Assembly (NCBI RefSeq): GCF_040214835.1
Contig: NZ_CP157874.1
Location: 2,050,001 to 2,114,000 of the forward strand
Direction: 5' to 3'
Length of the DNA stretch: 64,000 nucleotides
Source: Pseudomonas asiatica
GTDB lineage: Bacteria; Pseudomonadota; Gammaproteobacteria; Pseudomonadales; Pseudomonadaceae
Positions 24,355-38,050 of this stretch are shown here, one piece after another. The translations under genes were made by a program, and so were the position numbers. The notes below the pieces were generated by a model. It ran no database searches. It saw nothing but the letters and a program-made list of their open reading frames with translations, and was not told the origin of the DNA. Each line of letters opens with the position of its first letter. Position 1 is the first letter of the stretch.

Positions 24355-24435
24355 AGAGGTGGTACCTATCTAGCTTATCGCTTGGCAAGCCTGCGTCTAG
24401 TGTCGGGCCTTTTGATAAGCCCGAGGCGTAACAAC

Positions 24436-27400
24436 GTGACTACACCCACCAAGCAGCAACCGCCAACCGCCGATACGCTGGCCATGGAGCAGGCCTATCA
24501 GGACAACCTCATCGTCAAGCGACTGCCCAGATGGATTCGCCGGCTGCGTATCGTCTCGCCGACCGAGCAGAACATCCCGGCCAACGGTTTGTATGAATCG
24601 CAGCATGCTGCATTGCGCGACGCATTGAAAGACAGCCTGGCCTGTCGACAGTGGCTGGAAAAGGAGCTTGCGCGAATCGAGGGCATCGACCGTTTCGTCA
24701 AGCCGCTGCTTCAAAACGCCATGCAGGAACAGTTCGGCACCAAGGAAAATGTCGATGGCCTGTATTTCAGGCGCTGGTACACCTACACCGCTCCCAGCCA
24801 GGGCACCGTGTGGGGGCGCTACCCGGTTTTGGAAAAGGACTATTTCGAGGTACCGCTGATCGAGGCGGCACTGGACAACTTCACGCCGGGCGAGGGGCGG
24901 AACGAGCAGCACAAGGACAACTGCATCGTCGACAGCCTGTCGCAACGGCTCGCCTCACCAACCGCGCCAGCTTTCGCACGCTTGTGCCGCCAGCTGGATC
25001 TGGGCAAGCGCTATCAACAGCACCTGGACAGCGTGCTCAAAGCGCCGAGCAGCCAGGCAAGCGGCTGGCGCAGCATGGCTTCGACGCTTGCCCAGCTTTA
25101 CAGCTCGGTCATGCTGATCGATGCGTGCAAGGCCAAGAGCGATGGCGTGCTGACTGCTGCCGAACTGGGGCTGGTACTGGAACTATGCAAGCACGGGAGA
25201 CCTGGCACGTTGTACGAGTCGAAAGTGGTGGCCCGGCAACTGAAGGCGTTCGGCTGCGATCTGCAACAGATCGTGATACTCGATGTATTTCATGACAAAG
25301 TCAGCCGCAAGATCATTGTCTATATTCCCGATGACCCCCACGGTCCCTGGAGCGCAAGCCCCGACCTGGAAAGCTTCACCCGCAAGGTCTTGGGCAAGCG
25401 TCTGCGAGACAAGCGCTATCAGGATTTCTTCAAACGCTTCGTACGCCGGCGCGACTGCCAGCAGTTCTTCTCCAGGGTTGCCAAGGACCTGGTGGGCGTC
25501 GCCGATTGGGCAACCCGGGAAATGGACCAGCACATGCGGGACTACCCGCTGCCGTTGTTCGCCCACCTTGCTGCCGCGCGCATTGCCCACATCAAGGACG
25601 ATGCCGCGCTGATTGCCACGCCGGTGTCGGACCTTGACCGCAAGGCCCAGGAAGCCCATCAACAAAGGTTGGTTGCCGAGGGTTGGACCCTGGCCACGGT
25701 GGCGGGCGTGTTCATCCCCGCACTCAATGCGCTGCTGCTGGCGGTAATGGTCTGGGACCTGCTGGGCGAGCTGTTCCAGGCCGTGGAAGACTGGCGCGAG
25801 GGCGATACCAGCGCAGCAATGGAGCATGTGCTCAGCGTGACCAAAGACCTGGCCGTGATCGGTGTAACCGCTGTGGTATGGCGGGAAGCGAGCCGGGCCT
25901 GGGCCGCATTGGACCAATGGGTGCCAGCGCGCCTGGAAGACGGCAGCGAGAAACTCTGGAATGGAGACCTGGTGCCGTTTCGCAGCGCTGCACCTCCCGC
26001 TGGGGAAGTGGCCGATGCAATGGGCATCTACCGTGCCCAAAACAGAAGCTGGATGACCATGGACGGCCACAACTACGAAATCGTCCAGCGCGCAGATGAA
26101 GAGTGGCAACTGGCACCACGAGATGGTCATGGACCTTTGTTGCGTCACAATGACGCCGGTGCCTGGCGGCTATGGACCGAGCAACCGGCCAGCTGGACAG
26201 ACAAGCACAGGATGTTCCGCCGTCTTGGTGAGCGTTTCGCTCGCCTGGATGATGAACAGATTGACCAGGCCATGGCCGTCCATGCCCTGGATGCAGACCA
26301 TCTACGGGCGCTGCATGTGTACGGCCGGCCACCTGAGGCCGAGCTGGTCGATACCGTAGAGCGCCTGCTGATCGATCGCCGGCTGCAAACCCTGCTGGAC
26401 GATTTGAAGCTCGGGCGGGTGCCGGAGGACGCGCCGTTGCTGGCGAAGGCTCGCGCCCTACCTGGTGTCACCGAGCAGGGCGGGCCAGCATTGGCGGCGC
26501 AGGTCTCGGCAAGGCGGCGCCAGCTGTTTCAACAGGTGTATGACGGGCAGCAGGAGCCAGACGATGCGGCGGTGGCAACCTTGCGCAAGGCATTCCCGAG
26601 CCTGCATCGCCGAGCGGCGCGCGAGCTTGTGGGTGAGCTGTCGGCAGAAGGTGCGGAATTTCAGGCACTGGTCAGCGGTACGGTGCCGTTTCGGCTGGTC
26701 GAAAGGGCCAGGCTGAGCGTACTGCGCATACGTGTTGCGCGTGCCTGCGAGGCGCTGTTCATTGATACGCCCCAGACCCTGGACCAGGCCAAGGTCGCGC
26801 TGACGCTGCTGGAGACTCTGGATGTCAGGGAGGCCAGGCCGCGCTGGCGGCTGTACGATGGCGATAGCCCGCAGCCGATAATGACTACTGCTGGCGACGG
26901 GCAGAACTACAGGCTTGTGCATGACAACGGGCGGTTCGAGCTTGAAGATGCGCTAGGCCTCGAAATGAGTGGCCCCGGCGAGCTGTTCGAGACCTTGGCG
27001 GATGCGTTTGCCCCGGCCGATCGTGCTGCACTCGGTATCACTGAACCCTACGCCCCGGGTTTGAGAGCAGTGTTGGCCCGGCAAATGCCCGGGCACAGCA
27101 GGGTACTCGCCCAGGTGTTGGGCAAAAACCCTCGACAGCCATGGATGCTGGCGCCAGTGCGCCTGGAGGATGGCAGGGTCGGATACCCGCTGGGCGGCTG
27201 CCAGGGATGCTTTGCCCGGTCTGCATCTCGACCCCGGGCGTTCGAGGCGCGTCTGCGCGACCTTTACCCAGCGTACAGTGACGAGCAGATCGAAGCCTGG
27301 CTGACCACCTTGCATGCTTCGGGGCGTGATACCGACACCGAACTCGGTGTGCTCGAAGAGCAGGCCCGCAGGTTGAACGACCACTTGAAAAGCTGGGAGT

Positions 27401-28923
27401 GGCGAGGGTTGCTGAATCGTGATCGACCCGAGCGCAAGCGGTTTCGCAAAGCAATCATGCAATGCTGGCGGGAACGGGTGCCCGCTCAAGTTACACCTGA
27501 GCATCAACGTCTGGCTTTAACTTGGCAGTACAGCGCGTATGACCTGTGCTCATTGCCTGAATTGGGCCCACTCTTCAGCTTCCCGCACGTTACCGAACTT
27601 TCCCTGCGCAGCCTGTTGCTGAAAGAGGTACCAGAGCAGTTCCTGCTCTCATTCCCCAATCTGACGTCCCTGGAACTGAGCTACAACCAGTTGCAACGTC
27701 TGCCAGCGAGCCTGTCGTTGCTCAATGACTTGCGCATACTCGACTTGTCCGGCAATCGCATCTCTCTGGACGAGCCCCAGGCTCAAGTGCTGGCGCAATG
27801 CAGCCGGTTACGTTACCTGAACCTTTCGGACAATCGCTTGAACATGACCTTTTCTGTGGCACAGATGAACCAGTTGGCCGAACTGCGTTTGCGCAATGCC
27901 GGGTTGGTATTGCTACCCGAGGGCATCACGGACTGTCAGACGTTGTACATGCTCGATGCTTCCAACAACTTCATCACGCTGTTGCCTCCCAACTTCATCC
28001 AGTCCCCGTTGTGGCGGGACGGCTACGTGGCGCTGTCAGGCAATCCTGTGCTGCTGCACCAGGCTGTAGATGTGCAGGAGGCCTGGAACATTCCGGAGGA
28101 CAGTTCGGTCCCTCACAAATTTCGCTGGGTGGACCGCCTGGACGGTGATAGACGCGAAGATCTGGGTAACCTGTGGGCCACTGTTGAGCAAATGGATGGG
28201 GTGACGAACTTCATGCAACTGCTGAAACAGCTTACGCGCTCGCAAGACTTCACCCATCCTCGATATGGGGAAATGCTGGCTGCACGCGTTTTGACCATGA
28301 TGGAAAAGGTGGACAGCTCAGCAGCACTGGCCAATGAAATTTTCGCCAATGCACTGGTCGAGAACTGCGCCGACAATGCCACAGTGGTCTTCCAGCAGCT
28401 TGAAATCCGATGCCTTGTGTGGGAAGCCGAGCAGGCCGCCCCTTCTGGCAGCCAGGAACGAGCCCTGGTGAAACTGGCGCGGCAGTTGTGGAGGCAGCAG
28501 GAGGTTGACTTCATCGCCTTGCGCGAGGCTGAGGCTGCAGGTGCGGGCAATGAGTCGATCGAATGGGTACTAGCTTACTCGATCCGCTTGCGTGAGGAGC
28601 TGGGCCTGCCTGGCAACGCGCGCAGCATGCTATACGAGGGCATCCCGCACCTGGATGACGCTTCGGTGATGCGCGCGGCTGATCAGGTCAGGCGTAACGA
28701 GACAGCCGAATCGGTGGCAGTGTGGATGGTCCAGCAACCTTTCTGGAGAAATCATCTCGAGAAACGCTACGTGCGTGAACTGGAAGTGCCGCCAAGGTTT
28801 CAGAACCAGTTGGCAGAGGATGCCAATGCCGAGGACGCCGCCAGGTTGATGGCGGAAATCAGGCTGTGGACCGAGAGGACCGAGCTTCAACTGACCATCG
28901 AGGCTCTGCAACGGCCGGCATGA
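24436..28923 (+). CDS. Large LRR protein with NEL-type E3 ubiquitin ligase domain (DUF6543-like N-terminus)
   Basis: From a GTG at 24436 (GAGG 9 bases upstream) the protein has 1,495 residues. The N-terminal two thirds resembles the dermonecrotic-toxin-like DUF6543 region, with a long hydrophobic stretch around residues 418-450 (TLATVAGVFIPALNALLLAV). Five to six leucine-rich repeats follow at about 1040-1210 (LTSLELSYNQLQRLPASL, LRILDLSGNRI, LRYLNLSDNRL). The C-terminal domain fits the NEL fold of IpaH/SspH ligases, with a C-x-D motif at Cys1311/Asp1313 (VENCADNATVVFQQLE). NEL proteins ubiquitinate host proteins after delivery into eukaryotic cells. No secretion genes or chaperone lie nearby. 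Its weaker codon bias and lower GC than its neighbours suggest horizontal acquisition. Confidence 0.85.
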   Translation: MTTPTKQQPPTADTLAMEQAYQDNLIVKRLPRWIRRLRIVSPTEQNIPANGLYESQHAALRDALKDSLACRQWLEKELARIEGIDRFVKPLLQNAMQEQFGTKENVDGLYFRRWYTYTAPSQGTVWGRYPVLEKDYFEVPLIEAALDNFTPGEGRNEQHKDNCIVDSLSQRLASPTAPAFARLCRQLDLGKRYQQHLDSVLKAPSSQASGWRSMASTLAQLYSSVMLIDACKAKSDGVLTAAELGLVLELCKHGRPGTLYESKVVARQLKAFGCDLQQIVILDVFHDKVSRKIIVYIPDDPHGPWSASPDLESFTRKVLGKRLRDKRYQDFFKRFVRRRDCQQFFSRVAKDLVGVADWATREMDQHMRDYPLPLFAHLAAARIAHIKDDAALIATPVSDLDRKAQEAHQQRLVAEGWTLATVAGVFIPALNALLLAVMVWDLLGELFQAVEDWREGDTSAAMEHVLSVTKDLAVIGVTAVVWREASRAWAALDQWVPARLEDGSEKLWNGDLVPFRSAAPPAGEVADAMGIYRAQNRSWMTMDGHNYEIVQRADEEWQLAPRDGHGPLLRHNDAGAWRLWTEQPASWTDKHRMFRRLGERFARLDDEQIDQAMAVHALDADHLRALHVYGRPPEAELVDTVERLLIDRRLQTLLDDLKLGRVPEDAPLLAKARALPGVTEQGGPALAAQVSARRRQLFQQVYDGQQEPDDAAVATLRKAFPSLHRRAARELVGELSAEGAEFQALVSGTVPFRLVERARLSVLRIRVARACEALFIDTPQTLDQAKVALTLLETLDVREARPRWRLYDGDSPQPIMTTAGDGQNYRLVHDNGRFELEDALGLEMSGPGELFETLADAFAPADRAALGITEPYAPGLRAVLARQMPGHSRVLAQVLGKNPRQPWMLAPVRLEDGRVGYPLGGCQGCFARSASRPRAFEARLRDLYPAYSDEQIEAWLTTLHASGRDTDTELGVLEEQARRLNDHLKSWEWRGLLNRDRPERKRFRKAIMQCWRERVPAQVTPEHQRLALTWQYSAYDLCSLPELGPLFSFPHVTELSLRSLLLKEVPEQFLLSFPNLTSLELSYNQLQRLPASLSLLNDLRILDLSGNRISLDEPQAQVLAQCSRLRYLNLSDNRLNMTFSVAQMNQLAELRLRNAGLVLLPEGITDCQTLYMLDASNNFITLLPPNFIQSPLWRDGYVALSGNPVLLHQAVDVQEAWNIPEDSSVPHKFRWVDRLDGDRREDLGNLWATVEQMDGVTNFMQLLKQLTRSQDFTHPRYGEMLAARVLTMMEKVDSSAALANEIFANALVENCADNATVVFQQLEIRCLVWEAEQAAPSGSQERALVKLARQLWRQQEVDFIALREAEAAGAGNESIEWVLAYSIRLREELGLPGNARSMLYEGIPHLDDASVMRAADQVRRNETAESVAVWMVQQPFWRNHLEKRYVRELEVPPRFQNQLAEDANAEDAARLMAEIRLWTERTELQLTIEALQRPA

Positions 28924-29121: not shown

Positions 29122-29676
29122 ATGCTCGTCCGGTCACTGACCCTCGCCACCTTGCTCGCGCTTGTCGGCCCTGTGTTTGCTGCCGACAGTGACGCGCCGC
29201 TGGCCAAGGAACTGGGCAAGGCCAGGCCCTTGGTCGTCATTGCGCCCAGCAGCGCCGACCCGACCTTGCGTGGGTTGAACGAGGCCCTCAAGGACCCGGC
29301 CACCCAGGCCGCCTTCAAAGAGCGCAACCTGGTGGTGTACAGCGTTGCCAACATGATGGGCAAGCGTGAGGACAAGAACCTCGAGCAGCAGACCACCATG
29401 GCCCTGATCCGCGAGTTGAAGCTGGGTGCCAGCAAAGGCACCAAGGTGATCCTGGTGGGCAAGGACGGTGAGCGGCACATGCTCAAGGACGACGAGGAGG
29501 GCGAGGCCATCGACCCGCAGGTGATCCTCAAGGCGGTCGATGATCTGCCTGCCAGCGAAAAAGCCGTGACGGCGCCGGAGCCTGTGGCAGCGGCGGCCCC
29601 GGAGCCCAAGGCCAAGGACAGCAAGCCTGCCAAACCCGCCAAGCCGGCCGCGCCACCCAAGCCGCTGGAAGACTGA
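29122..29676 (+). CDS. DUF4174-like exported protein
   Basis: The 184-residue protein has a signal peptide (MLVRSLTLATLLALVGPVFA) and a thioredoxin-fold-like domain of the DUF4174 type (KARPLVVIAPSSADPTL and TKVILVGKDGERHML). It lacks a CxxC pair, so redox activity is unlikely. The last 35 residues are a low-complexity Ala/Pro/Lys tail (repeats of KPAKPA), possibly a flexible or cell-wall-contacting extension. AAGGAG precedes ATG 29122. A strong hairpin follows the stop, separating it from the next operon. Function unknown. Confidence 0.75.
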   Translation: MLVRSLTLATLLALVGPVFAADSDAPLAKELGKARPLVVIAPSSADPTLRGLNEALKDPATQAAFKERNLVVYSVANMMGKREDKNLEQQTTMALIRELKLGASKGTKVILVGKDGERHMLKDDEEGEAIDPQVILKAVDDLPASEKAVTAPEPVAAAAPEPKAKDSKPAKPAKPAAPPKPLED

Positions 29677-29713: not shown

Positions 29714-29728
29714 TGTATCCCACTGTAT
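29714..29728 (+). promoter_or_regulatory. Direct-repeat operator A (TGTAT-N5-TGTAT) before the precursor operon
   Basis: TGTATCCCACTGTAT carries two half-sites spaced 10 bases apart, one helical turn, as OmpR-family regulators bind. The same arrangement recurs at 34711 and 36968. It is 112 bases upstream of the EGKCG precursor gene. The layout TGTA-N6-TGTA equals the reverse of the RstA box known from enterobacteria. Confidence 0.6.
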
Positions 29729-29839
29729 CTGCCCACGCCGCAGACCCATTCCCATACAAAACCGCACCCCGCGCGATACATCCACGACATACCGCAACGG
29801 CCTAATGGCTCCACATTCCAACCACAGTGGAGCGACACC

Positions 29840-30331
29840 ATGACTCAAGTACGAAACACCCTCGGCCTGCTCGGCGCTGCCCTGATCGGCAGCATGGCAT
29901 TGAGCAGCAGCGCCTTTGCCGTCGAGCCGTTGGCCCAGGGTTACCAGCTGGCTTCGGCCAAGGTGGCCGGCGAGGGCAAGTGTGGTGAAGGCAAATGTGG
30001 TGGCAGCGCCAAGGCCACCCAGGGCGAAGGCAAATGCGGTGAGGGCAAGTGCGGCGCCAGCGCCAAGGCCGGTGCCGAAGGCAAATGTGGCGAGGGCAAG
30101 TGTGGTGACGCCTCGTTCGCCAAGACCGACAGCAACCACGACGGCAAGGTCTCGCGCGACGAGTTCCTGGCGGTGGCCAAGGACCGTGCCGGCGACTTCG
30201 ACAAGATCGACAGCAACCATGATGGCTTCATCTCCGAACAGGAGGCTGCGGATCACCTCAAGGCGATCTACCAGGCTAATGGCAAGGCCATGCCCGAAGG
30301 CTTGTTCAGCCACCTGACCGGCAAGTCCTGA
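29840..30331 (+). CDS. EGKCG-repeat copper-peptide precursor (HvfA/bufferin-like) with two EF-hands
   Basis: The 163-residue exported protein starts with a signal peptide (cleavage after about Ala27). Six EGKCG units follow in three tandem pairs, with Cys48, 53, 66, 71, 83 and 88; in HvfA-type peptides such cysteines are converted by a DUF692 (MNIO) enzyme to copper-binding heterocycles. The C-terminal half has two canonical EF-hand loops, 97-108 ([12 protein letters not shown]) and 124-135 ([12 protein letters not shown]), both with all calcium ligands. The maturase and partner genes follow directly, supporting substrate status. Operator A lies upstream and a strong hairpin after the stop may set precursor excess. 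Confidence 0.85.
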
Positions 30332-30352
30332 CCTTCTGCCCCATGAACCGCG

Positions 30353-30385
30353 CAACGCCCCTCCTGCTGGTCAGGCGGGGCGTTG
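30353..30385 (+). terminator. Intercistronic hairpin between precursor and maturase genes
   Basis: A perfect 9-bp stem CAACGCCCC/GGGGCGTTG with a 15-base loop lies in the 76-base gap, without a proper poly-T run. It is likely a partial terminator or mRNA-stabilising hairpin that keeps precursor output above maturase output. Confidence 0.6.
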
Positions 30386-30407
30386 TGCCTGTTGCGGAGA
30401 CCTGTTC

Positions 30408-31256
30408 ATGCACCCCACATCTTTGTCCCCTGTACCTTTACAGACCGGGCTAGGCCTGCGCCGCGGCCTGCTGGCGGAACTGCTGGCCATGGAGGCTGGC
30501 GCCGTGGACTTTCTCGAATGCGCACCGGAAAACTGGGTTGCCGTGGGCGGTGCCTACGGCAAGGGCCTGGCGCAGTTGGCCGAGCGTTTTGCCATTACCT
30601 GCCACGGGCTGTCGTTGTCGCTGGGTGGCAGCGAGCCGCTGGACCGCCATTTCCTTGGCCAGACCCGCCAGTTTCTCGATCGCCACCAGGTGCGCCTGTA
30701 CAGCGAGCACCTGAGCTACTGCAGTGATGACGGGCACCTGTACGACCTGATGCCCATTCCATTCACCGACGAAGCGGTGCGCCATGTGGCCACGCGGATT
30801 CGCCAGGCCCAGGAATACCTGGAGCGGCGCATTGCCGTGGAAAACATCAGCTACTACGCCGCACCGTACCAGGCGATGAGTGAACTCGACTTCATCCGCG
30901 CGGTACTCGATGAGGCCGACTGCGACCTGCTGCTGGACGTCAACAACGTCTTCGTCAATGCCTGCAATCACGGTTATGACGCCCGCGAATTCCTGGCGGG
31001 CTTGCCCCAGGCGCGGGTCACCGGCATGCACGTGGCTGGCCATTACGATGAAGCGCCGGACCTCAAGGTAGACACCCACGGGGCTGCGGTGAAGGAAGAT
31101 GTGTGGGCGCTGTACGCGGTAGCCTGTGCGCGCTTCGGTGTGCAACCGACCGTGCTCGAGCGTGATTTCAACTATCCGCCGCTGGCCGAACTGCTCGCCG
31201 AGGCGGCGCGCATCCGCACTGTGCAGTGTGCTGCGGGAGGGCATGCAAATGAATGA
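30408..31256 (+). CDS. DUF692/MNIO multinuclear iron oxygenase (HvfB/BufB-like peptide maturase)
   Basis: The 282-residue TIM-barrel protein is a DUF692 family member. Known MNIO enzymes use a cluster of two or three iron ions and oxygen to rebuild cysteines in precursor peptides. The metal-ligand positions are visible: His in [12 protein letters not shown], His in YSEHLSY, Glu in AVENISYY, Asp/Asn in [15 protein letters not shown], His in GMHVAGHYD and Glu in VLERDFN. Its substrate is most likely the EGKCG protein encoded upstream. The downstream partner gene overlaps its end by 8 bases. Confidence 0.92.
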
Positions 31257-31947
31257 GACCTTGCGTGAGCAGCAGTACACCTTGGCCCGGCACCTGCGTG
31301 ACCCGCAGCGCCATGCGCCGCCGCCGGGCGTGGAGGCCCGGCGCCTGAAGGTTTACCGCGAGCTGTTCTATGGCGCTATCGAAGGTTTGCTGGCCGGCAG
31401 TTTTCCGGTGATGCGCCAGGCGTTGGGCGAACCGCGCTGGCATGCCCGAGTGCGAGATTTCTATGCCAACTATCGCAGCCAGACACCGTTGTTCACCGAG
31501 ATTGCCCAAGCGTTCGTCGATTACCTGCAAGGCATCGAGCTGGATGCGCCCTGGCAGCTGGAGCTGGCGCACTATGAGTGGGTCGAGGCGCAGTTGTATC
31601 TGAGCGATGCCGAGGACCCGGCCCATGACCCGGCAGGCGACCTGCTGGAAGGGGAGCCACTGTTGTCGTGTGTGGCGCGGGTGTTGGCCTATCGCTGGCC
31701 GGTGGAGCGGATCGGGGCGGATTACCAGCCAGCGGTCGCGCCAGAGGCGCCGACCTTGTTGCTGGTTTATCGCGATGCGGGGCTGAAGGTGCGCTTCGCG
31801 CGCCTGGCGCCGCTGGCGTACCGGTTGCTGGCACTGGAACAGGGCAGTGGGCGGGCTCGGTTGGAGGCGTTGGGCGGTGCTGTGGAGGAAGGGTTGGCGT
31901 TGCTGGAGGGATTGCGCGAGCAGGGGGTCATCATCGGTACAGGTTGA
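31249..31947 (+). CDS. DUF2063 partner protein of the MNIO maturase (HvfC/BufC-like)
   Basis: The 232-residue protein belongs to DUF2063, the putative DNA-binding-labelled family that in fact acts as the peptide-recognition partner of DUF692 enzymes. The family N-terminus is clear ([44 protein letters not shown]). I chose ATG 31249, with GGGAGG 8 bases upstream; an ATG six bases earlier would sit too close to that site. The start overlaps the maturase stop by 8 bases. Downstream the operon ends at a half REP and an IS110 insertion. Confidence 0.88.
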
Positions 31948-31970
31948 GTGCGGGTACGGGGGGCGCCTTG

Positions 31971-32000
31971 CGCCCCTATCGCGACACTAGGCCGCTCCTA
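31971..32000. repeat. Half REP, left member
   Basis: CGCCCCTATCGCGACACTAG then GCCGCTCCTAT is the left arm of the ACAAGGCCGC-type palindrome with two base differences. Its expected right arm is found only at 33455, on the other side of the IS element. The rest of the 306-base gap 31948-32253 holds a degenerate TGTAGGAGCGG copy (32154) and the left IS end. Confidence 0.8.
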
Positions 32001-32164
32001 TGTATGGACTCGCCCACACTGTCTAGCTGCTTTTGAACATAGGAACCCGGTTGCATCTATGTATCAGGCCTGTTCGAGGAAGCTTTTTGCTTCTGGCCAA
32101 CATCGTGGTGAGCTCGCAGCGTGCCGTTTACATTGAGGCCACTGCATCGGGCCTGTAGGAGCGG

Positions 32165-33447
32165 AGGCATCAGTCTGCGACGGTCTTACCAGGGGTCAAT
32201 GTTCACTAGCAGGGGTTGGAGCGCTTAGCGCCCCGGTGGCATTACTCGGTTGGTCAGAGGCTCATGGCAGCCTCCGGGTTGCTGTTCGGTTTGTGTTGAT
32301 AGACCTGGTCGTTCTGTAACAGGGCCCAGATAATGCGCAGATTTCGATTAGCCAGTCTGATCGCCGCTTCCTTGCGCCCAAGGCGGGATAGCCAGCGCAA
32401 GAGGCGGCGATCGTCTGGCTGATCGGAATCAGGCCTTAGCTGACTCAAGACAGCATGTGCGCCCTGGATCATCAGGCTACGTATGTAGCCGTCACCTCGC
32501 TTGCTCATCCTGCCCAATCTGACTTTGTTTCCACTGCTGTGCTGATCGGGCACGATACCGAAGAAGGCGGAATACATTCGGCCACTGGCGAAGCGGCTGG
32601 GCTCGGTCTGTTTCGCCACGATCGCCGTGGCGATGATAGGGCCTACGCCACGAATGGTGACCAGTCGCTGTGCGACTTTATCCTCCCGGGCTGTCGCTTC
32701 GAGCCGTCTACTGAGCCCCGCAATGCGTTCACCCAGAGACAGCCAGTCCGTCAACAGCTCATCGAGCAACTCACGCAATAGGTCGGGCAAAGGTAAAGAG
32801 GCATCCTCAAGAGACCGCGGCACATGCTTACCAATCGCAGCGTCGCCCTGTGGCATGGATACGCCATGCTCAAGCAGCAAACCACGTATCTGGTTACCCA
32901 GCGCGGTATGCCGCTTGATGTTGCCGCGGCGGATACGGTGCAGTGCTTGAATAGCCAGTGCTGTGGTGCTCTTGATCGATATCGAGGCAATACTGGTATC
33001 GCGACCGGCGCGCAAAATGGCATGGGTGTCGTTACGGTCGTTCTTCGCGCCGCTGCGGTGTTCGGCGACTCGTTGCGCAGGCAGGATGCGAACCGCATTA
33101 CCTTTGGCCTGCAGCAGCCTTGCCCAGGCTTGTGCACCTGGGCCGCACTCCATCAAGACGGTCACTGTCGCTGGCAACCTGAGCAGGAAATCATGAAAGG
33201 CCTGACGGGATTTGATGCGATCTTCGTAGATCACCCGACCGGTAGCATCCTCGCCTGCTAACTGAAAGACCTGCTTGGCCAGGTCTACACAGATGGTTGT
33301 GCAAAGCTCCACATCAGTGGACGACAGGGAACCTTGCTTGGAACTATGCTTTTTCATGGTCTCGCCCTCGCTGCCGTTGGCTTCTTAGAACGCCACCGTG
33401 GCACTGTGATGCCTCGGCGGGGGCGAGTCCATCGATTACAGAGGTAC
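32165..33447 (-). mobile_element. IS110 family (IS1111-type) insertion sequence, REP-associated
   Basis: One transposase gene is flanked by subterminal inverted repeats CGGTGGCATT (32234-32243) and, inverted, CGGTGGCGTT (33389-33398), as expected for the IS1111 branch. The element separates the two arms of a REP pair (31971-32000 and 33455-33505). Exact ends are uncertain: the base pattern preceding the right REP arm (GCGATCCCCTGTAGG) occurs at other REPs here, so the right end lies before about 33448. From memory, IS110-type elements of P. putida such as ISPpu10 occupy REP sequences. Confidence 0.8.
32254..33357 (-). CDS. IS110 family transposase (DEDD type)
   Basis: The 367-residue protein has the N-terminal RuvC-like DEDD domain (Asp in TICVDLAKQVFQ, Glu in VLMECGPGAQ, Asp in KNDRNDTHAI) and the C-terminal transposase-20 domain (LVTIRGVGPIIATAIV, FASGRMYSAFFGIVP, LGRMSKRGDGYIRSLM with the catalytic-type serine region). 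The frame is intact and full length, so the element could be active. Transposases of this family recombine site-specifically without target duplication and, in some members, use a bridge RNA encoded in the element's non-coding end. Confidence 0.95.
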   Translation of the reverse strand: MKKHSSKQGSLSSTDVELCTTICVDLAKQVFQLAGEDATGRVIYEDRIKSRQAFHDFLLRLPATVTVLMECGPGAQAWARLLQAKGNAVRILPAQRVAEHRSGAKNDRNDTHAILRAGRDTSIASISIKSTTALAIQALHRIRRGNIKRHTALGNQIRGLLLEHGVSMPQGDAAIGKHVPRSLEDASLPLPDLLRELLDELLTDWLSLGERIAGLSRRLEATAREDKVAQRLVTIRGVGPIIATAIVAKQTEPSRFASGRMYSAFFGIVPDQHSSGNKVRLGRMSKRGDGYIRSLMIQGAHAVLSQLRPDSDQPDDRRLLRWLSRLGRKEAAIRLANRNLRIIWALLQNDQVYQHKPNSNPEAAMSL

Positions 33448-33454
33448 GCGATCC

Positions 33455-33505
33455 CCTGTAGGAGCGGCCTTGTGTCGCGATGGGCTGCAACGCAGCCCCG
33501 GCGAT
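33455..33505. repeat. Half REP, right member, next to the IS element
   Basis: CCTGTAGGAGCGGCCTTGTG..TCGCGATGGGCTGC and a following GGGCTGCAACGCAGCCCC hairpin form the right arm matching the left arm at 31971. The pair is now about 1.45 kb apart because of the IS. Confidence 0.85.
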
Positions 33506-33506
33506 A

Positions 33507-33995
33507 TCACCTGCAGAACCGCCCTCTGAGCCAATGATCCAGGCTCAATCGCCCAGCCCCTTTCAGCAGCAGTGGCAGCAACGCCACCAGGTAGATCAAC
33601 GGCAACTTGAAGTTGCCAAAGCCCTGGTCGGTAATCGCATACCCTTGGGCCAGCTCGGCCAGGTTCGACCAGTGCGCCGGCCAATGCACCGCAGCAATCG
33701 CCACCACGGTCACCACCATCAGCCCCAACGAGGCCAGCCGGGTACCTAGCCCCAGCAACAGCAGTAACGGCAGGATCAGCTCCGCCCACATCGACAGCTG
33801 CCAGTTCAGCTCTGCAGGCAGCAGGTTGAAGGGGAACGGGAAGTTCGCTTGCAGGTCGGCGAACCAGTTGCTGCCATTGAATTTCTCCCAGCCGGATTCG
33901 AAAAATTCCCAGGCCAGGAACAGCCGCAACGGCAGGTCGGCGCTCCAGGTACCGAAACGGTCGAAGGTGGTCAGGGTGCGGGTCAAGGTGGTCAT
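33507..33995 (-). CDS. DoxX family membrane protein (HvfX-like)
   Basis: The 162-residue protein has four hydrophobic helices and the DoxX pattern ([40 protein letters not shown]). DoxX proteins accompany DUF692/DUF2063 copper-peptide operons often enough to be named HvfX in databases, from memory; they are thought to assist redox or membrane steps. Here the gene is convergent to the precursor operon across the IS and follows a ferric-reductase-like gene by 14 bases. That pair is preceded by direct-repeat operator C, supporting membership of the same regulon. Confidence 0.82.
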
Positions 33996-34009
33996 GCTGG
34001 TTTCTCTCT

Positions 34010-34627
34010 TCAGGAAAGGGCACGGGCGTTACGGCGTTGCTGGCGGGCCAGCTTGGCGGTGAGCTTGACGGCGATGGCGCTGAACATCAGGGCGAACGCC
34101 AGCGGGTACCAGCCGCCCATGGGGATGCGTTTGTAGAACGACAGGCAGAACACCGCGGCCAGTACCCACATGCCGGTGCTGTGCAGGGCCTGCCAGGCAC
34201 GGCCACCCAACAGGCGCATCGGGGCCTTGAACGAGGTGATGGTGAGCAGCAGCAGAAACAGGTAGCCGAGGGTGCCGGGCAGGCTGGAAGTTAGCGTGCG
34301 GCCGGCCCAGAACAGCTCGGGGAATTGCTGGGCATAGCGGTAGATCAGTACGCCGTGCACGGTGTGGGAAAAGGCGAATGCCAACCCCAGATAGCGCCGT
34401 TCCTGGAGGATGCGACGGCTGTTGGTGCCAGGCAGCAAGGTCACCAGCGACGAGGCCAGGAAGGCCAGCAGGAATAGCGCGAAGGAGCTGCGCGCAGTGG
34501 CACGGATCGCGCTGCGCAGGCCGTCCGGATCAGGTTGGCTGGCCAGGACCACGGCGGTCATCACCAAGGTCAGGCCGGCGAGCGTGGCGAACAGCTTCCA
34601 GCCGGAGGGAAGGGTGAGGGGTTTCAT
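34010..34627 (-). CDS. Ferric-reductase-like transmembrane protein (cytochrome b-type)
   Basis: The 205-residue membrane protein with about six helices resembles the heme-binding ferric reductase/MsrQ domain. Paired histidines sit in facing helices ([11 protein letters not shown] about residue 90; [10 protein letters not shown] about 150), which fit heme b axial ligands. No flavin or NADPH domain is present, so it would pass electrons from the quinone pool or a partner. It is co-directional and 14 bases from the DoxX gene. ATG 34627 was preferred over a GTG one codon upstream. Operator C lies 84 bases upstream. Confidence 0.75.
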
Positions 34628-34710
34628 CACGGAGGCTCCCGGAGTGTGGTTGTGTGACCGGGAGTGTGTCGGGGTGGGGTATCTGCAGTGTGTCGGCGGT
34701 GGTGGGGTTG

Positions 34711-34725
34711 TGTATCGGAGTGTAC
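34711..34725 (-). promoter_or_regulatory. Direct-repeat operator C (TGTAT-N5-TGTAC) before the reductase/DoxX genes
   Basis: TGTATCGGAGTGTAC has the same 10-base half-site spacing as the copies at 29714 and 36968, with one mismatch in the second half. It lies upstream of the leftward ferric-reductase-like gene; read on the strand shown to the left it is in reverse orientation. Confidence 0.5.
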
Positions 34726-34751
34726 TGATACTTCAAGCACCACCTGCTTTT

Positions 34752-34868
34752 TGTGGGAGCGGCCTTGCGTCGCGAAAGGGCCGCAACGCGGCCCCGGCAA
34801 TTCATGCGACGAAGCTGAAAACCTGGGGCTGCTGCGCAGCCCTATCGCGACGCAAGGCCGCTCCCACA
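34752..34868. repeat. REP-like inverted repeat, 'TGTGGGAGCGGCC' type, outward form
   Basis: Arms TGTGGGAGCGGCCTTGCGTC..GCGAAAGGGCC and the near reverse complement ending CCGCTCCCACA enclose two hairpins (GGGCCGCAACGCGGCCC and GGGCTGCTGCGCAGCCC). It follows the histidine kinase gene, which ends at 34874. Confidence 0.9.
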
Positions 34869-34873
34869 AACTG

Positions 34874-36160
34874 TCATTTGAGCTCGATCTGCGCGCACAG
34901 CCCGCCGCCTGCGCGGTTGCTCAGGGTCAGTCGGCCGCCCATGGCCTGGATCAGCTGATGGGCAATCGCCAACCCCAGCCCTGTGCCGCCGGTGCTGCGG
35001 TTGCGTGAGCCTTCCACGCGATAGAACGGCTTGAGCACTTCATCCAGTTCGCCGCCAGGTATGCCTGGCCCGTTGTCGAGCACGCGGATCAACGTCCAGT
35101 CGCCCTCGCGGCACACCTCCAGTTCGGCAGCGCCGGCAAACTTGAGGGCGTTGTCCACCAGGTTCACCAGCACCCGGCGCAGGGCATGCGGGCGGGTTTC
35201 CAGCAGGCTGCCGCTGCTGCCATGGCGCTCGACCTGGGCGCCACTGTCCTGGTAGTCGAACACCAGGCTGTCGAGAAAGGCATCGAGGTTGACCCGGCAC
35301 GGGGCCTCGGTGCTGGTGTCCATGCTGCGGGCATAGGCCACGCCTTCGCGCACCAGGTGTTCCATCTCACCCAGGTCGCTCCACAGCTTGTCCTTTTCCA
35401 CCCCTTCGTCCATCACTTCGACACGCAGCTTCATGCGCGTAATCGGTGTTTGCAGGTCGTGGGAAATGGCCGCCAGCAACTGCATGCGTTCCTTGAGGTA
35501 GGCAGCGATGCGCGCCTGCAGGGCGTTGAAGGCCACGGCGGCGTAGCGCACCTCGCGCGGGCCGCTTTCATCCAGCTGCACGCCAGGCTTGTCCGGGTCG
35601 AGGTTGTCCACCGCACGGGCCAGGCGGGTCAGCGGGCCGATCGCCAGGCGTACCGCCAGCCAGGTGCACAGCAACAGCACGGCCAGCTGGATCAGCAACA
35701 CCACGGGCAGCCAACGTGCCACCGGGACCGGCGATGGGGTGACGTCGATGGTCAGCGGTGCGCCATCGGCCAGGGTCAGGTGTGCCTGGAAGTGCGCATT
35801 CGGGCCGGGGATTTCCTGGAAGGAAAGGCGATAGTCGGCGCCAATGGCCTTGACGATAGAGTCGGCGGCCATGGGTGGGTCACTGGTCGGCATGGCTTCG
35901 CCCGCCAGGCCCTGGTCCAGCCGGTAGCGGTAGGTACGCCGCTCCAGGCGCGGCAGCCAGGCGGCGCGCTCGGCCGCGGGCAGGCGGTCGAGGATGGCCA
36001 CCGAGGTGGCCACGTCCTGCTCCAGGGTGCTGAGCATCATCGAGCGGCTGCTGATGTAGCGCTCGTAGGCCTGCAGGCCGAACGACAGGCCGTAGGCCAG
36101 CACCAGGCCGGTGAAGAAGATCAGTGCCAGGCGTGAGGCCAGGGTACGTGGCCACTTCAT
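34874..36160 (-). CDS. Two-component sensor histidine kinase (EnvZ-like)
   Basis: The 428-residue kinase has two transmembrane segments (about 12-32 and 152-175) bounding a periplasmic sensor of about 120 residues, then HAMP (about 175-228), the H-box AISHDLQTPITRM with the phospho-accepting His near 238, and the ATPase domain with N-box NLVDNALKFA, G1 DNGPGIP and G2 GGTGLGLAIAHQLI. All catalytic boxes are intact. It overlaps the response regulator gene by 4 bases. The direct-repeat boxes in the region suggest it controls the copper-peptide genes; a metal or envelope signal is likely but not shown. Confidence 0.92.
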   Translation of the reverse strand: MKWPRTLASRLALIFFTGLVLAYGLSFGLQAYERYISSRSMMLSTLEQDVATSVAILDRLPAAERAAWLPRLERRTYRYRLDQGLAGEAMPTSDPPMAADSIVKAIGADYRLSFQEIPGPNAHFQAHLTLADGAPLTIDVTPSPVPVARWLPVVLLIQLAVLLLCTWLAVRLAIGPLTRLARAVDNLDPDKPGVQLDESGPREVRYAAVAFNALQARIAAYLKERMQLLAAISHDLQTPITRMKLRVEVMDEGVEKDKLWSDLGEMEHLVREGVAYARSMDTSTEAPCRVNLDAFLDSLVFDYQDSGAQVERHGSSGSLLETRPHALRRVLVNLVDNALKFAGAAELEVCREGDWTLIRVLDNGPGIPGGELDEVLKPFYRVEGSRNRSTGGTGLGLAIAHQLIQAMGGRLTLSNRAGGGLCAQIELK

Positions 36161-36897
36161 GATGGCGACTCGAGCAGTTGCACCGGCAGCGAGAACACGT
36201 AGCCCTCGCTGCGCACGGTCTTGATGCAGCTGGGTTCGCGGGCGTCGTCACCCAGGCGCTGGCGCAGGCGGCTGACCAGCAGGTCGATGGAGCGGTCGAA
36301 GATGTCGGCTTCGCGGCCCTGGGTCAGGTTGAGCAACTGCTCACGGCTGAGCACCCGCTGCGGGTGGTCGAGAAACACCCGCAGCAGGCGGTATTCGGCA
36401 CCGCTCAGGGCTACCAGGGTGCCTTCGCTGTCGAGCAGGTGGCGCGCGGTGGTGTCCAGCCGCCACTGGCCGAAGCCGAGCAGGCGGCTGCTTTCGCTGA
36501 TGGTCAGGTTGGGCGGCAGCATGCGCGTGCGGCGCAGCACGGCATTGATACGGGCCAGCAGTTCGCGGGCCGAGAACGGCTTGGTCAGGTAATCGTCGGC
36601 GCCCATTTCCAGGCCGATGATGCGGTCGGTTTCGTCGTTGCGGGCGGTCAGCATCAGCACCGGGGTGTTGCGGTGCTTGCCGGCGCGCAACTCGCGGCAC
36701 AACAGCAGGCCGTCGTCGCCGGGCATCATGATGTCCAGGACGATCAGGTCGACGCTGTTGGCTTCTAGAAAGGCGCGCATCTGCCGGCCGTCAGCGACGA
36801 TGCTGGTGCGCAGGCCGTTCTTTTTCAGGTAGTTGCCGACCAGTTCGCGGATTTCGCGGTCGTCGTCGACGATCAGGATGTGATCGACGTGTTCCAT
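36157..36897 (-). CDS. OmpR-family response regulator
   Basis: The 246-residue regulator has a receiver domain (acid pocket IVDDDREI, phospho-acceptor Asp near residue 57 in DLIVLDIMMPG, Thr in MLTARND, Lys in DYLTKPF) and a winged-helix DNA-binding domain (LSGAEYRLLRVFLDHP, VLSREQLLNL, RSIDLLVSRLRQRLG, IKTVRSEGYVF). It is most like OmpR/RstA-type regulators, which bind direct repeats spaced 10-11 bases. Such a repeat is found 71 bases upstream of its own start and at two neighbouring promoters. The sensor kinase gene follows with a 4-base overlap. Confidence 0.92.
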   Translation of the reverse strand: MEHVDHILIVDDDREIRELVGNYLKKNGLRTSIVADGRQMRAFLEANSVDLIVLDIMMPGDDGLLLCRELRAGKHRNTPVLMLTARNDETDRIIGLEMGADDYLTKPFSARELLARINAVLRRTRMLPPNLTISESSRLLGFGQWRLDTTARHLLDSEGTLVALSGAEYRLLRVFLDHPQRVLSREQLLNLTQGREADIFDRSIDLLVSRLRQRLGDDAREPSCIKTVRSEGYVFSLPVQLLESPS

Positions 36898-36967
36898 GCG
36901 CTGCGTTCCTGTGCAAGAGGGGATGGGCGCAGTGTACCGAGCGCGTTCGCGCTTGCCTGCGGGGGTT

Positions 36968-36982
36968 TGTATTGCAGTGTAT
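36968..36982. promoter_or_regulatory. Direct-repeat operator B (TGTAT-N5-TGTAT) between the regulator gene and DUF2790 gene
   Basis: TGTATTGCAGTGTAT shares half-sites and spacing with the copy at 29714; the downstream six bases CTGCC(A/C) are also shared. It lies 71 bases upstream of the response regulator and 136 bases upstream of the rightward DUF2790-thioredoxin genes, so it could serve autoregulation, the divergent pair, or both. Confidence 0.6.
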
Positions 36983-37117
36983 CTGCCATGCGTACAGACA
37001 CAGGAGGAAGCACATCACAGCTTCGGGCGACACATACGGGATACCTGGCCGGCGTGAAATGGCTCTCGACCGGGGAGCACAACTCCCCACCCTCAAGCGT
37101 TACACAGGAGAGATGCC

Positions 37118-37393
37118 ATGAACTTCAATACCTTCGCCCGTGCCAGCCTGTTCGCCGTGCTCAGCTTCGGCGCCATTGCCGCCCAGGCCTCCACCATGCC
37201 GATGGACGACAGCGGGGTCATGCAGTACCGCTACGGTGACCACCTGGATGTGAAGAAAGTGCTGTCGATACAGGATGACCAGAGCGACGCCTGCGGTTTG
37301 GTGAACACCCGCATGGACTACCTCGACTCCAAGGGCCAGCAGCAGAGCGTGCAGTACCGCACTTACGCCACCGGCGGTTGCCATGAGAATTGA
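37118..37393 (+). CDS. DUF2790 family periplasmic small protein
   Basis: The 91-residue protein has a signal peptide (ending AAQA, about residue 24) and a DUF2790 domain: YRYGDHLDVKKVLSI, then CGLVNTRMDYLDSKGQ, and a final Cys. The two cysteines (CGLVN and TGGCHEN) may form a disulfide. This family is common and multi-copy in pseudomonads and is frequently induced by metal stress, from recall. Its end overlaps the thioredoxin-like gene by 11 bases, and operator B lies upstream. Confidence 0.85.
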   Translation: MNFNTFARASLFAVLSFGAIAAQASTMPMDDSGVMQYRYGDHLDVKKVLSIQDDQSDACGLVNTRMDYLDSKGQQQSVQYRTYATGGCHEN

Positions 37394-37919
37394 TCGCCGC
37401 TTGTTGTTGAAGGTTGGCGGCATTGCCCTGGCGCTGGCCGGCCTGGGCCTGGCCGGGCACCTGATGGCCCGCGACAGCTACGGTGCCATGCCGTCGCTGT
37501 CCGGCGCCAGCCAGTGGCTTAATTCGGCGCCGCTGGATGGCCCCGGGCTCAAGGGCAAGGTGGTGCTGGTGGACTTCTGGACCTGGGACTGCATCAACTG
37601 CCGGCGCAGCCTGCCGCATGTGAACGAATGGGCGCGGCGCTATGCCGACCAGGGCCTGGTGGTGGTTGGCGTGCACACCCCGGAGTACGACTACGAGCAC
37701 GATGTAGGCACCTTGCGTGACAAGGTAGCCAGCCTGGGGATCGGTTACCCGGTGGCGGTGGATAACGACTACAAGGTGTGGAACGCCTGGGGCAACCAGT
37801 TCTGGCCGGCGCATTACTTTGTCGACCGCAAGGGGCAGGTGCGCCATGTGCACTTTGGCGAGGGGGATTATGGTGGGCAGGAGCAGGTGATACAGGCGTT
37901 GCTGGATGAGAAAGGGTGA
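37383..37919 (+). CDS. Periplasmic thioredoxin-like (TlpA/DipZ C-terminal type) protein
   Basis: The 178-residue protein has an N-terminal membrane anchor or signal (LLLKVGGIALALAGLGLAGH) and a thioredoxin fold with redox pair Cys70-Ile-Asn-Cys73 in FWTWDCINCRRS. That motif is typical of the family that reads WTxxCINCxR. It probably reduces or shuffles disulfides or protects cysteine ligands in the periplasm. Translational overlap with the DUF2790 gene and nearby operator B place it in the metal-peptide regulon, where a thiol-disulfide protein would fit a cysteine-rich exported peptide. Confidence 0.85.
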   Translation: MRIDRRLLLKVGGIALALAGLGLAGHLMARDSYGAMPSLSGASQWLNSAPLDGPGLKGKVVLVDFWTWDCINCRRSLPHVNEWARRYADQGLVVVGVHTPEYDYEHDVGTLRDKVASLGIGYPVAVDNDYKVWNAWGNQFWPAHYFVDRKGQVRHVHFGEGDYGGQEQVIQALLDEKG

Positions 37920-37931
37920 GTTGTCTGTGCC

Positions 37932-38038
37932 GGCCTCTTCGCGGCGGTTCGACGACTCGATGAACCCGCTCCCACAGGTACTGCACCGCTTGCAGACTGT
38001 GCGATCCCTGTGGGAGCGGGTTTACCCGCGAAGAAGCC
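37932..38038. repeat. REP-like inverted repeat with a disrupted left arm
   Basis: The right arm CCTGTGGGAGCGGGTTTACC..CGCGAAGAAGCC (38007-38038) is normal. The left arm GGCCTCTTCGCGG is interrupted by about 16 extra bases (37945-37961) before GAACCCGCTCCCACAGG. The insert forms its own short inverted repeat GGTTC...GAACC. Confidence 0.85.
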
Positions 38039-38050
38039 AACACCGATCCG

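Follow-up and report, generated by a model that had tools for sequence, protein, structure and literature searches.

Two questions concern the widespread MNIO metal peptides: what triggers their production, and whether copper or oxidants are the problem that they solve. Both can be asked at a locus of Pseudomonas asiatica (assembly GCF_040214835.1, contig NZ_CP157874.1) contained in a stretch of 64,000 nucleotides (positions 2,050,001 to 2,114,000), hereafter referred to as the window. The locus combines genes for an EGKCG-type peptide precursor (hvfA), its putative maturase (hvfB) and partner protein (hvfC), membrane redox proteins, and a periplasmic thioredoxin with genes for a sensor kinase and an OmpR-type response regulator, and a direct repeat occurs in three of its intergenic regions. 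Comparison of genomes indicates that the regulator very probably recognizes the repeat, TGTATCNCWSTGTATC, with its 10-base period, and activates its own operon along with three further units. An operator common to the regulator, precursor, maturase, and periplasmic redox genes would provide a direct handle on both questions.

The repeat in the window and in the host genome

The exact pattern TGTATNNNNNTGTAY was searched on either strand of the window and of the genome. An earlier note, made from the window sequence alone, had placed repeats at positions 29714, 34711, and 36968. All three were confirmed (TGTATCCCACTGTAT, TGTATCGGAGTGTAC, and TGTATTGCAGTGTAT; sites 1, 2, and 3, respectively), each with the claimed half-site spacing of 10 bases, and the window has no further exact match to TGTAT-N5-TGTAY on either strand. 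In 100 dinucleotide shuffles, the mean number of exact matches was 0.01 per window. The complete genome (5.85 Mb) contains four exact matches, the fourth located within a reading frame labeled ccmB-like by eye. Since ~3.5 matches per genome (0.04 per window) are expected from composition, there is no excess at the level of the genome. The unusual feature is instead the clustering of three of the four copies, each intergenic, within 7.3 kb (rough chance estimate, ~2e-5), together with their conservation. A scan allowing up to two mismatches returned 31 matches versus 19 for the reversed control, and no extra regulon members are claimed in this genome on that basis. Two sites differ from the pattern by one mismatch, one within a frame of 946 residues and the other just 5′ of a lipoprotein-like frame of 251 residues.

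The repeat tracks the regulator across Pseudomonas

A regulator match at E ≤ 1e-90 was found in 81 of the 149 genomes of the genus. The refined pattern TGTATYNNWSTGTAY matched 249 times in these 81 genomes and 19 times in the 68 genomes lacking the regulator, versus 9 and 8 times, respectively, for the reversed pattern. This refined pattern is partly fitted, since it was chosen after inspection of the sites returned by a looser search (TGTAYN5TGTAY), for which the excess is smaller and of the same kind (745 matches versus 537 for the control in the 81 genomes; 454 versus 388 in the 68).

Regulator loci were collected as the best 80 of 588 confirmed places, to which the counts by identity given here and below refer. 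A strict site was located no more than 200 bases from the start of the regulator gene at all 15 Pseudomonas loci with at least 84% identity, among which we counted locus L079, titled Pantoea sp. Ap-967 but 99% identical (loci are designated by L and genomes by G). By eye, the recognition-helix region DRSIDLLVSRLRQRL was nearly constant in regulators sharing at least 70% identity. In 40 site regions picked by hand from ~150 sites listed of the 268 refined matches, the first gene belonged, by our reading, to a named family in 35 cases and was unassigned in five (L095, L113, L126, L127, and L133). The families comprised the regulator, DUF2790/DipZ, hvfA, hvfB (alone or accompanied by an acetamidase-like gene), DUF2282, DoxX, hydrolase, Ohr, cupin, and repeat peptide; labels came from our own clustering of reading frames, some of which were mis-started or antisense. 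DipZ-type genes were found behind a site in relatives, and the DipZ-type protein of other pseudomonads is a fusion of CcdA and thioredoxin of ~400 residues.

At L119 and L122 to L125, the repeat is followed by genes for small proteins of exported appearance that contain reiterated VAEGGADRLQELRER-type units. In some genomes, these genes adjoin a second regulator gene copy; the one protein that was tested had no Pfam match.

Sites upstream of maturase and precursor genes

The analysis of hvfB covered all 71 loci that matched at E ≤ 1e-60 in the 149 genomes, with up to 2.5 kb of upstream sequence each. A strict site was present at 37 of the 58 loci from regulator-bearing genomes and at none of the 13 others (Fisher test, 1.6e-5). 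All 37 sites, including site 1 of the window, had the same orientation. By chance, ~0.4 site was expected across the 58 loci, with the highest genome total seen taken as a generous background. The site was present at 24 of the 36 hvfB loci linked to the regulator and at 13 of the 22 unlinked loci (more than 20 kb away or on another contig). The latter include G067, in which the regulator gene and hvfB do not share a contig, and location on another contig of a draft genome does not prove distance from the regulator. For hvfB genes located more than 20 kb from the regulator on the same contig, the proportion was 6 of 10. Among the 37 sites, which are related sequences, C was conserved at positions +5, +7, and +15 although it was not imposed by the search, and many of these promoters contain a GATACA-like block, i.e., an inverted half-site, ~30 bases downstream of the site.

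Precursor genes located away from hvfB were also preceded by the repeat. The gene for the EGKCG-EF-hand precursor is separated from hvfB by 369 kb in G128 and by 320 kb in G131, with a site at each gene, and the two genes are on two short contigs in G021, each with its own site. No EGKC-type repeat was detected in the 2.5 kb upstream of hvfB in these three genomes. A shared operator would predict which unlinked precursor pairs with which maturase. Genomes G140 and G017 had no hvfB match at E ≤ 1e-60; their site lies 172 bases before a gene for a DUF2282-type precursor (84.9 bits for the G017 copy; cut-off, 22.4), followed by DoxX and hydrolase genes. The sites found at unlinked genes in some relatives point to one envelope-stress response.

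A gene of the acetamidase/formamidase family is located between the repeat and hvfB at L104, L106, L110, and L129. In three of these four genomes (G131, G005, and G135), no EGKC-type repeat was found in the 2.5 kb before hvfB; the fourth, G100, has two.

Conservation of the three sites in syntenic relatives

Fifteen regions were taken for the comparison of synteny. All three sites are kept in the five closest relatives (G057, G072, G145, G103, and G081), in which sites 1 and 3 are invariant. Sites 2 and 3 are kept in G045, in which site 1 is gone from the linked hvfA and a distant second copy of hvfA has the site. In G063 and G028, site 3 is kept, site 2 is well formed (TGTATCGCTCTGTAT), and site 1 is missing. 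Site 2 has the TGTATCGCTCTGTAT form at L217 and L218 and was not found at L216 or L220. It remains before hvfX at L015 and L079, where no match to the ferric-reductase-like gene was found. In G074 and G036, sites are present at hvfB and at the regulator gene, with no match to the ferric-reductase-like gene or hvfX. In G110, G104, and G025, the regulator site is the only one in the region taken, and an hvf site is present elsewhere in the genome.

Several observations weigh against the assignment of all units to one regulon. Site 2 has a mismatched half (TGTAT-N5-TGTAG) in four of the five closest relatives, the TGTAC form occurring in the fifth, and it is reversed relative to the gene wherever it was seen. 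Only site 3 is kept in G077 and in G039, the latter despite the presence of a ferric-reductase-like gene. Twenty-one of the 58 hvfB loci from regulator-bearing genomes lack a strict site, including regulator-linked loci of G077, G028, and G063 and one of the two of G045. The 13 hvfB loci from regulator-less genomes are all more divergent (58% identity or less), and phylogeny thus confounds the comparison with the 58 other loci. The regulator-less genomes show a slight excess of refined matches over the control (19 versus 8), the number of exact sites in the P. asiatica genome is no higher than composition predicts, and the genomes are related, so that counts are not independent events.

The earlier note had made absence of the repeats from orthologous promoters the observation that would speak against its proposal. 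The repeats were found there for the three sites of the five closest relatives, the 15 regulator loci, and the majority of the hvfB loci of regulator-bearing genomes, and they were missing for site 1 in G045, G077, G063, and G028 and for site 2 in G077. Its claim that the sites precede three gene groups stood as to position, the middle site being weaker and reversed relative to its gene; site 2 on its own could be weak or inactive. Overall, the putative operator is conserved at its proposed targets together with the regulator, partially so for site 2 and with the exception of the hvfB loci mentioned above, and the cross-genome comparison of sites and regulator supports the proposed single two-component regulon.

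Proposed mechanism

Comparison of sequences across genomes established where the repeats occur, how far they are conserved, and that they accompany the regulator; binding and activation by the regulator, the functions of the products, and the nature of the stress are inferred. The kinase would phosphorylate the response regulator (36157 to 36897), which in this form would bind to the direct repeat and activate its own operon, hvfABC, the ferric-reductase-like/hvfX pair, and the DUF2790-thioredoxin unit. HvfB and HvfC would then modify the EGKCG repeats of HvfA, which in characterized relatives are converted to copper-binding thiooxazoles. Reduction of periplasmic thiols would fall to the thioredoxin and electron transfer to the DoxX and ferric-reductase-like membrane proteins, and the products would jointly protect the periplasm.

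The repeat and the regulator outside Pseudomonas

In rhizobia, Burkholderiales, Lysobacter, and Lelliottia, the repeat also marks orthologues of the regulator, and the neighboring genes in most cases encode DipZ, Ohr, and alpha/beta hydrolases. In the collection of regulator loci, a site was present within 2 kb of the regulator at 22 of the 27 other loci with at least 70% identity, at 11 of the 22 loci with 59 to 69% identity, and at 1 of the 16 loci below, a group that includes the Pseudomonas-titled locus L080 (57%), which has no site. Four annotated plasmid stretches, three rhizobial and one from Microvirga, carry the pair or the regulator together with genes for DipZ, alpha/beta hydrolases, and a protein for resistance to organic hydroperoxides. 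In 12 whole non-Pseudomonas genomes, a pattern derived from the sites of the regulator loci themselves, TGTATCNSANTGTAT, matched 17 times, 15 matches being inside these 20-kb loci. The two remaining matches precede a cupin-hydrolase pair (G152) and a pair encoding an exported protein and a hydrolase (G160), as labeled by eye.

The association of the non-Pseudomonas sites with DipZ, Ohr, and hydrolases suggests that thiol and peroxide defense is the older core of the system. Most likely, as judged from this distribution, an older envelope system responding to thiol and oxidant stress acquired the EGKCG and DUF2282 metal-peptide operons in Pseudomonas. Since a weaker, reversed match of the TGTAC type precedes a gene for a DUF2282-like precursor in Massilia (L050), recruitment of metal peptides may also have occurred outside Pseudomonas.

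In relatives of the Massilia/Janthinobacterium type (L065 to L067, L070, L071, and L074; ~60% identity), the repeat is located ~57 bases before the regulator gene. Several loci of the L065-L074 group have an efflux-type operon and a gene for a small Spy/LTXXQ-like protein as neighbors (by eye).

Sensor kinase and signal

Kinases were readable at 73 of the 81 places. Those associated with regulators of ~70% identity or more (one at 68%) form a clade of 39 that includes the kinase of the window; the 34 others are more distant. Of the 39 clade kinases, 37 have Cys165, a residue of the probable second membrane helix, as against 2 of the 34 distant ones. In 25 of the clade kinases, by our own count, no other cysteine occurs among the first 190 residues. 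A search of solved structures with the sensor loop gave three matches (best E, 0.94), none of them meaningful.

Both metal sensing and redox sensing by the kinase are possible on sequence grounds. If the kinase were a dedicated copper sensor, the same regulon would operate as a copper-detoxification switch, a reading that we regard as possible, if rather doubtful. It is consistent with the copper-binding character of EGKCG and DUF2282 peptides from characterized relatives, as described in passages of PMC13097082 and PMC12452194, and with the conservation in the kinase loop of Met42 and His127, each found in 36 of the 39 clade members and uncommon in the 34 distant kinases. However, the loop (approximately residues 31 to 150) is free of cysteine in 33 of the 39 by our own count, the regulator scores below the cut-off of the CopR/CusR-type heavy-metal family TIGR01387 (141.3 versus 279.2 bits), and no gene is labeled as copper-related on the four rhizobial and Microvirga stretches, with their DipZ, Ohr, and alpha/beta hydrolase genes. 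In addition, a homologous DoxX/COG3767/COG3220/DUF2063 cluster of H. influenzae responds to hypochlorite via RpoE2, according to PMC7907618.

The published context leans towards general stress. We favor thiol or oxidant stress as the signal, with copper as a possible co-signal. More specifically, and tentatively, the kinase may sense oxidants or electrophiles through Cys165, and the MNIO-modified peptides of this regulon, of the EGKCG type in some species and the DUF2282 type in others, may act mainly in periplasmic thiol and oxidant defense together with a DipZ-type thioredoxin, with copper binding as a side effect or second role; we consider this detailed proposal to have less than an even chance of being correct. 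If it is true, the regulon would be a tool for finding precursors encoded far from their maturase, and Cys165 would be a testable cysteine in the sensor.

Other explanations for the repeats

It is improbable that the repeats are bound by a different regulator of the OmpR/RstA type, the adjacent pair being just another target. According to PMC9426598, RstA uses a TACA direct repeat, and related regulators could thus share a site; a first look at the genome gave 96 response-regulator candidates. However, the refined sites are near background in regulator-less genomes and absent from the hvfB loci there. In other bacterial classes, the sites stay beside the regulator considered here, with 2 of the 17 matches in the 12 genomes located elsewhere. 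Chance, which could produce about as many exact matches as the genome contains, is a very improbable origin of the three repeats and was set aside because the sites are conserved at all three places in five relatives, at 15 of 15 regulator promoters, and at 37 of 58 hvfB loci; for sites 1 and 3 in particular, this conservation leaves it little room.

Relation to known systems

The locus resembles HvfABCX/captophorin (oxazolin, Buf_EGKCG) operons in its EGKCG precursor and in HvfB, HvfC, and HvfX, which score above the NCBIfam cut-offs. It differs in being split into two converging units and in having a two-component regulator with a shared operator. By analogy, a copper-binding 5-thiooxazole product is predicted for this HvfA. 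The precursor type, the EF-hand fusion, and the ferric-reductase neighbor are known parts: PMC12452194 already describes EGKC-EF-hand fusions and, in small numbers, the ferric-reductase neighbor. DUF2282-DoxX-hydrolase-DUF692 clusters of Pseudomonas appear in PMC8719888 under the name Pep4.

The regulators of such operons that we met in the literature are sigma factors. Control of DUF692/DUF2063/DoxX genes by extracytoplasmic function (ECF) sigma factors is reported for Caulobacter SigF, Haemophilus RpoE2, and Sinorhizobium RpoE7 (PMC7907618, PMC6180224, and PMC3511200). Stress-linked control of these genes is common to both situations, and the kinase, the OmpR-type regulator, and the direct-repeat operator would here replace the sigma/anti-sigma pair. 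Co-occurring "transcriptional regulators" are mentioned in PMC13097082, their type being unnamed in the passages concerned. The term "two-component" is absent from that article, "two-component" and "response regulator" are absent from PMC12538549, and these two terms and "histidine kinase" are absent from the main text of PMC12452194. Among the matches listed in the open-access literature, there was no report of a two-component regulator of MNIO operons, for which a prior description is possible, nor of a DipZ/Ohr two-component system or of this repeat.

DsbRS of Pseudomonas is a copper-sensing two-component system beside periplasmic thiol genes (passages of PMC10141476 and PMC13101516), and the pair studied here likewise adjoins such genes. 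In G055 and G005, a candidate DsbRS pair, assigned by position only (~4 kb from a DsbC/DsbG-type gene), showed 36% identity for the regulator and 26 to 27% for the kinase, and TGTA-N6-TGTA was not found near it. In the P. asiatica genome, the 10 kb surrounding the dsb genes were searched and no such pair was found. Identity with DsbRS was rejected on the basis of the 36% identity and the lack of the motif at the dsb-type locus, the comparison pair being assigned by position only.

The RstA box has the spacing TGTA-N6-TGTA on the other strand. The repeat of the locus shares this direct-repeat layout, and in this respect the likeness to OmpR/RstA regulators that the earlier note had claimed was borne out. 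The likeness did not extend to the protein, which scored below the cut-offs of the RstA (174.6 versus 330 bits) and OmpR (244.4 versus 331 bits) equivalogs, as for the CopR type, and the targets differ from those of RstA.

Genes and other features of the locus

The block encodes a two-component system, as claimed, its regulator combining receiver and winged-helix domains next to an adjacent kinase gene, as in OmpR-type systems. Nine genes were counted in the system instead of the ten of the earlier note: hvfA, hvfB, hvfC, hvfX (DoxX), and the genes for the ferric-reductase-like protein, kinase, regulator, DUF2790 protein, and thioredoxin (Table 1).

Table 1. Repeats and genes of the P. asiatica locus (positions in the window)
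Feature	Position	Strand	Remarks
Site 1, TGTATCCCACTGTAT	29714..29728	+	111 bases 5′ of hvfA start, in the orientation of the gene; identical in five close relatives
hvfA-type precursor	29840..30331	+	Secretion signal (by eye), three EGKCG-type repeat blocks, C-terminal EF-hand region (Pfam)
hvfB, MNIO (DUF692) maturase	30408..31256	+	NF003818, 418.4 bits (cut-off, 360); PF05114
hvfC, DUF2063 partner protein	31249..31947	+	NF050145, 253.6 bits (cut-off, 142)
IS110-family transposase, 367 residues	32254..33357	-	PF02371/PF01548; outside the system, between its two halves
hvfX, DoxX membrane protein	33507..33995	-	NF050144, 156.4 bits (cut-off, 80)
Ferric-reductase-like membrane protein	34010..34630	-	PF01794
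Site 2, TGTATCGGAGTGTAC	34711..34725	+	80 bases before ferric-reductase-like gene, reversed relative to it; weakest of the three
Sensor histidine kinase, 428 residues	34874..36160	-	Library profile matches
OmpR-type response regulator, 246 residues	36157..36897	-	PF00072 and PF00486
Candidate -10 hexamer (TACACT), regulator promoter	36931..36936	-	31 bases from site 3; putative
Site 3, TGTATTGCAGTGTAT	36968..36982	+	Between divergent regulator and DUF2790 genes; reversed relative to regulator gene
DUF2790 small protein	37118..37393	+	PF10976, 75.2 bits
Thioredoxin-like protein, WDCINC motif	37383..37919	+	Like the DipZ C-terminal domain, without the membrane half

The precursor passed the NCBIfam profile for EGKCG repeats (NF050137; 65.7 bits versus a cut-off of 19.5) and scored below the cut-off of the HvfA equivalog (NF050188; 55.9 versus 95 bits). 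The ferric-reductase-like protein did not reach the cut-off of the MsrQ equivalog (35.8 versus 130 bits) and was not assigned to MsrPQ. The DUF2790 protein is one of seven matches to this family in the genome. In our own clustering, the thioredoxin-like protein grouped with the longer DipZ-type proteins of relatives; DipZ is a CcdA-thioredoxin fusion, of which the protein of the window resembles the thioredoxin half. Blocks resembling the TACACT hexamer occur at the same place in several relatives (by eye).

The IS110 gene is inserted between the convergent hvfC and hvfX genes. It is a late insertion, since no match to it was found in five syntenic relatives whose gene order otherwise agrees with that of the window; in the syntenic relative G057, the stretch from site 1 to site 3 is ~1.4 kb shorter.

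Inverted repeats resembling repetitive extragenic palindromes, of the GTGGGAGCGG...CCGCTCCCAC type (by eye), were seen at 34754 to 34873, 33455 to 33475, and 37930 to 38040; they adjoin site 2 and the 3′ side of the thioredoxin gene. A DUF4174 gene (71 bits; 29122 to 29676) is located upstream of site 1. Such a gene is found beside hvfX at L079, where hvfABC had no match, and beside hvfA in the eight relatives examined (L210 to L216 and L015). Farther upstream, a frame of 1513 residues (24382 to 28923) contains apparent leucine-rich repeats, as seen by eye.

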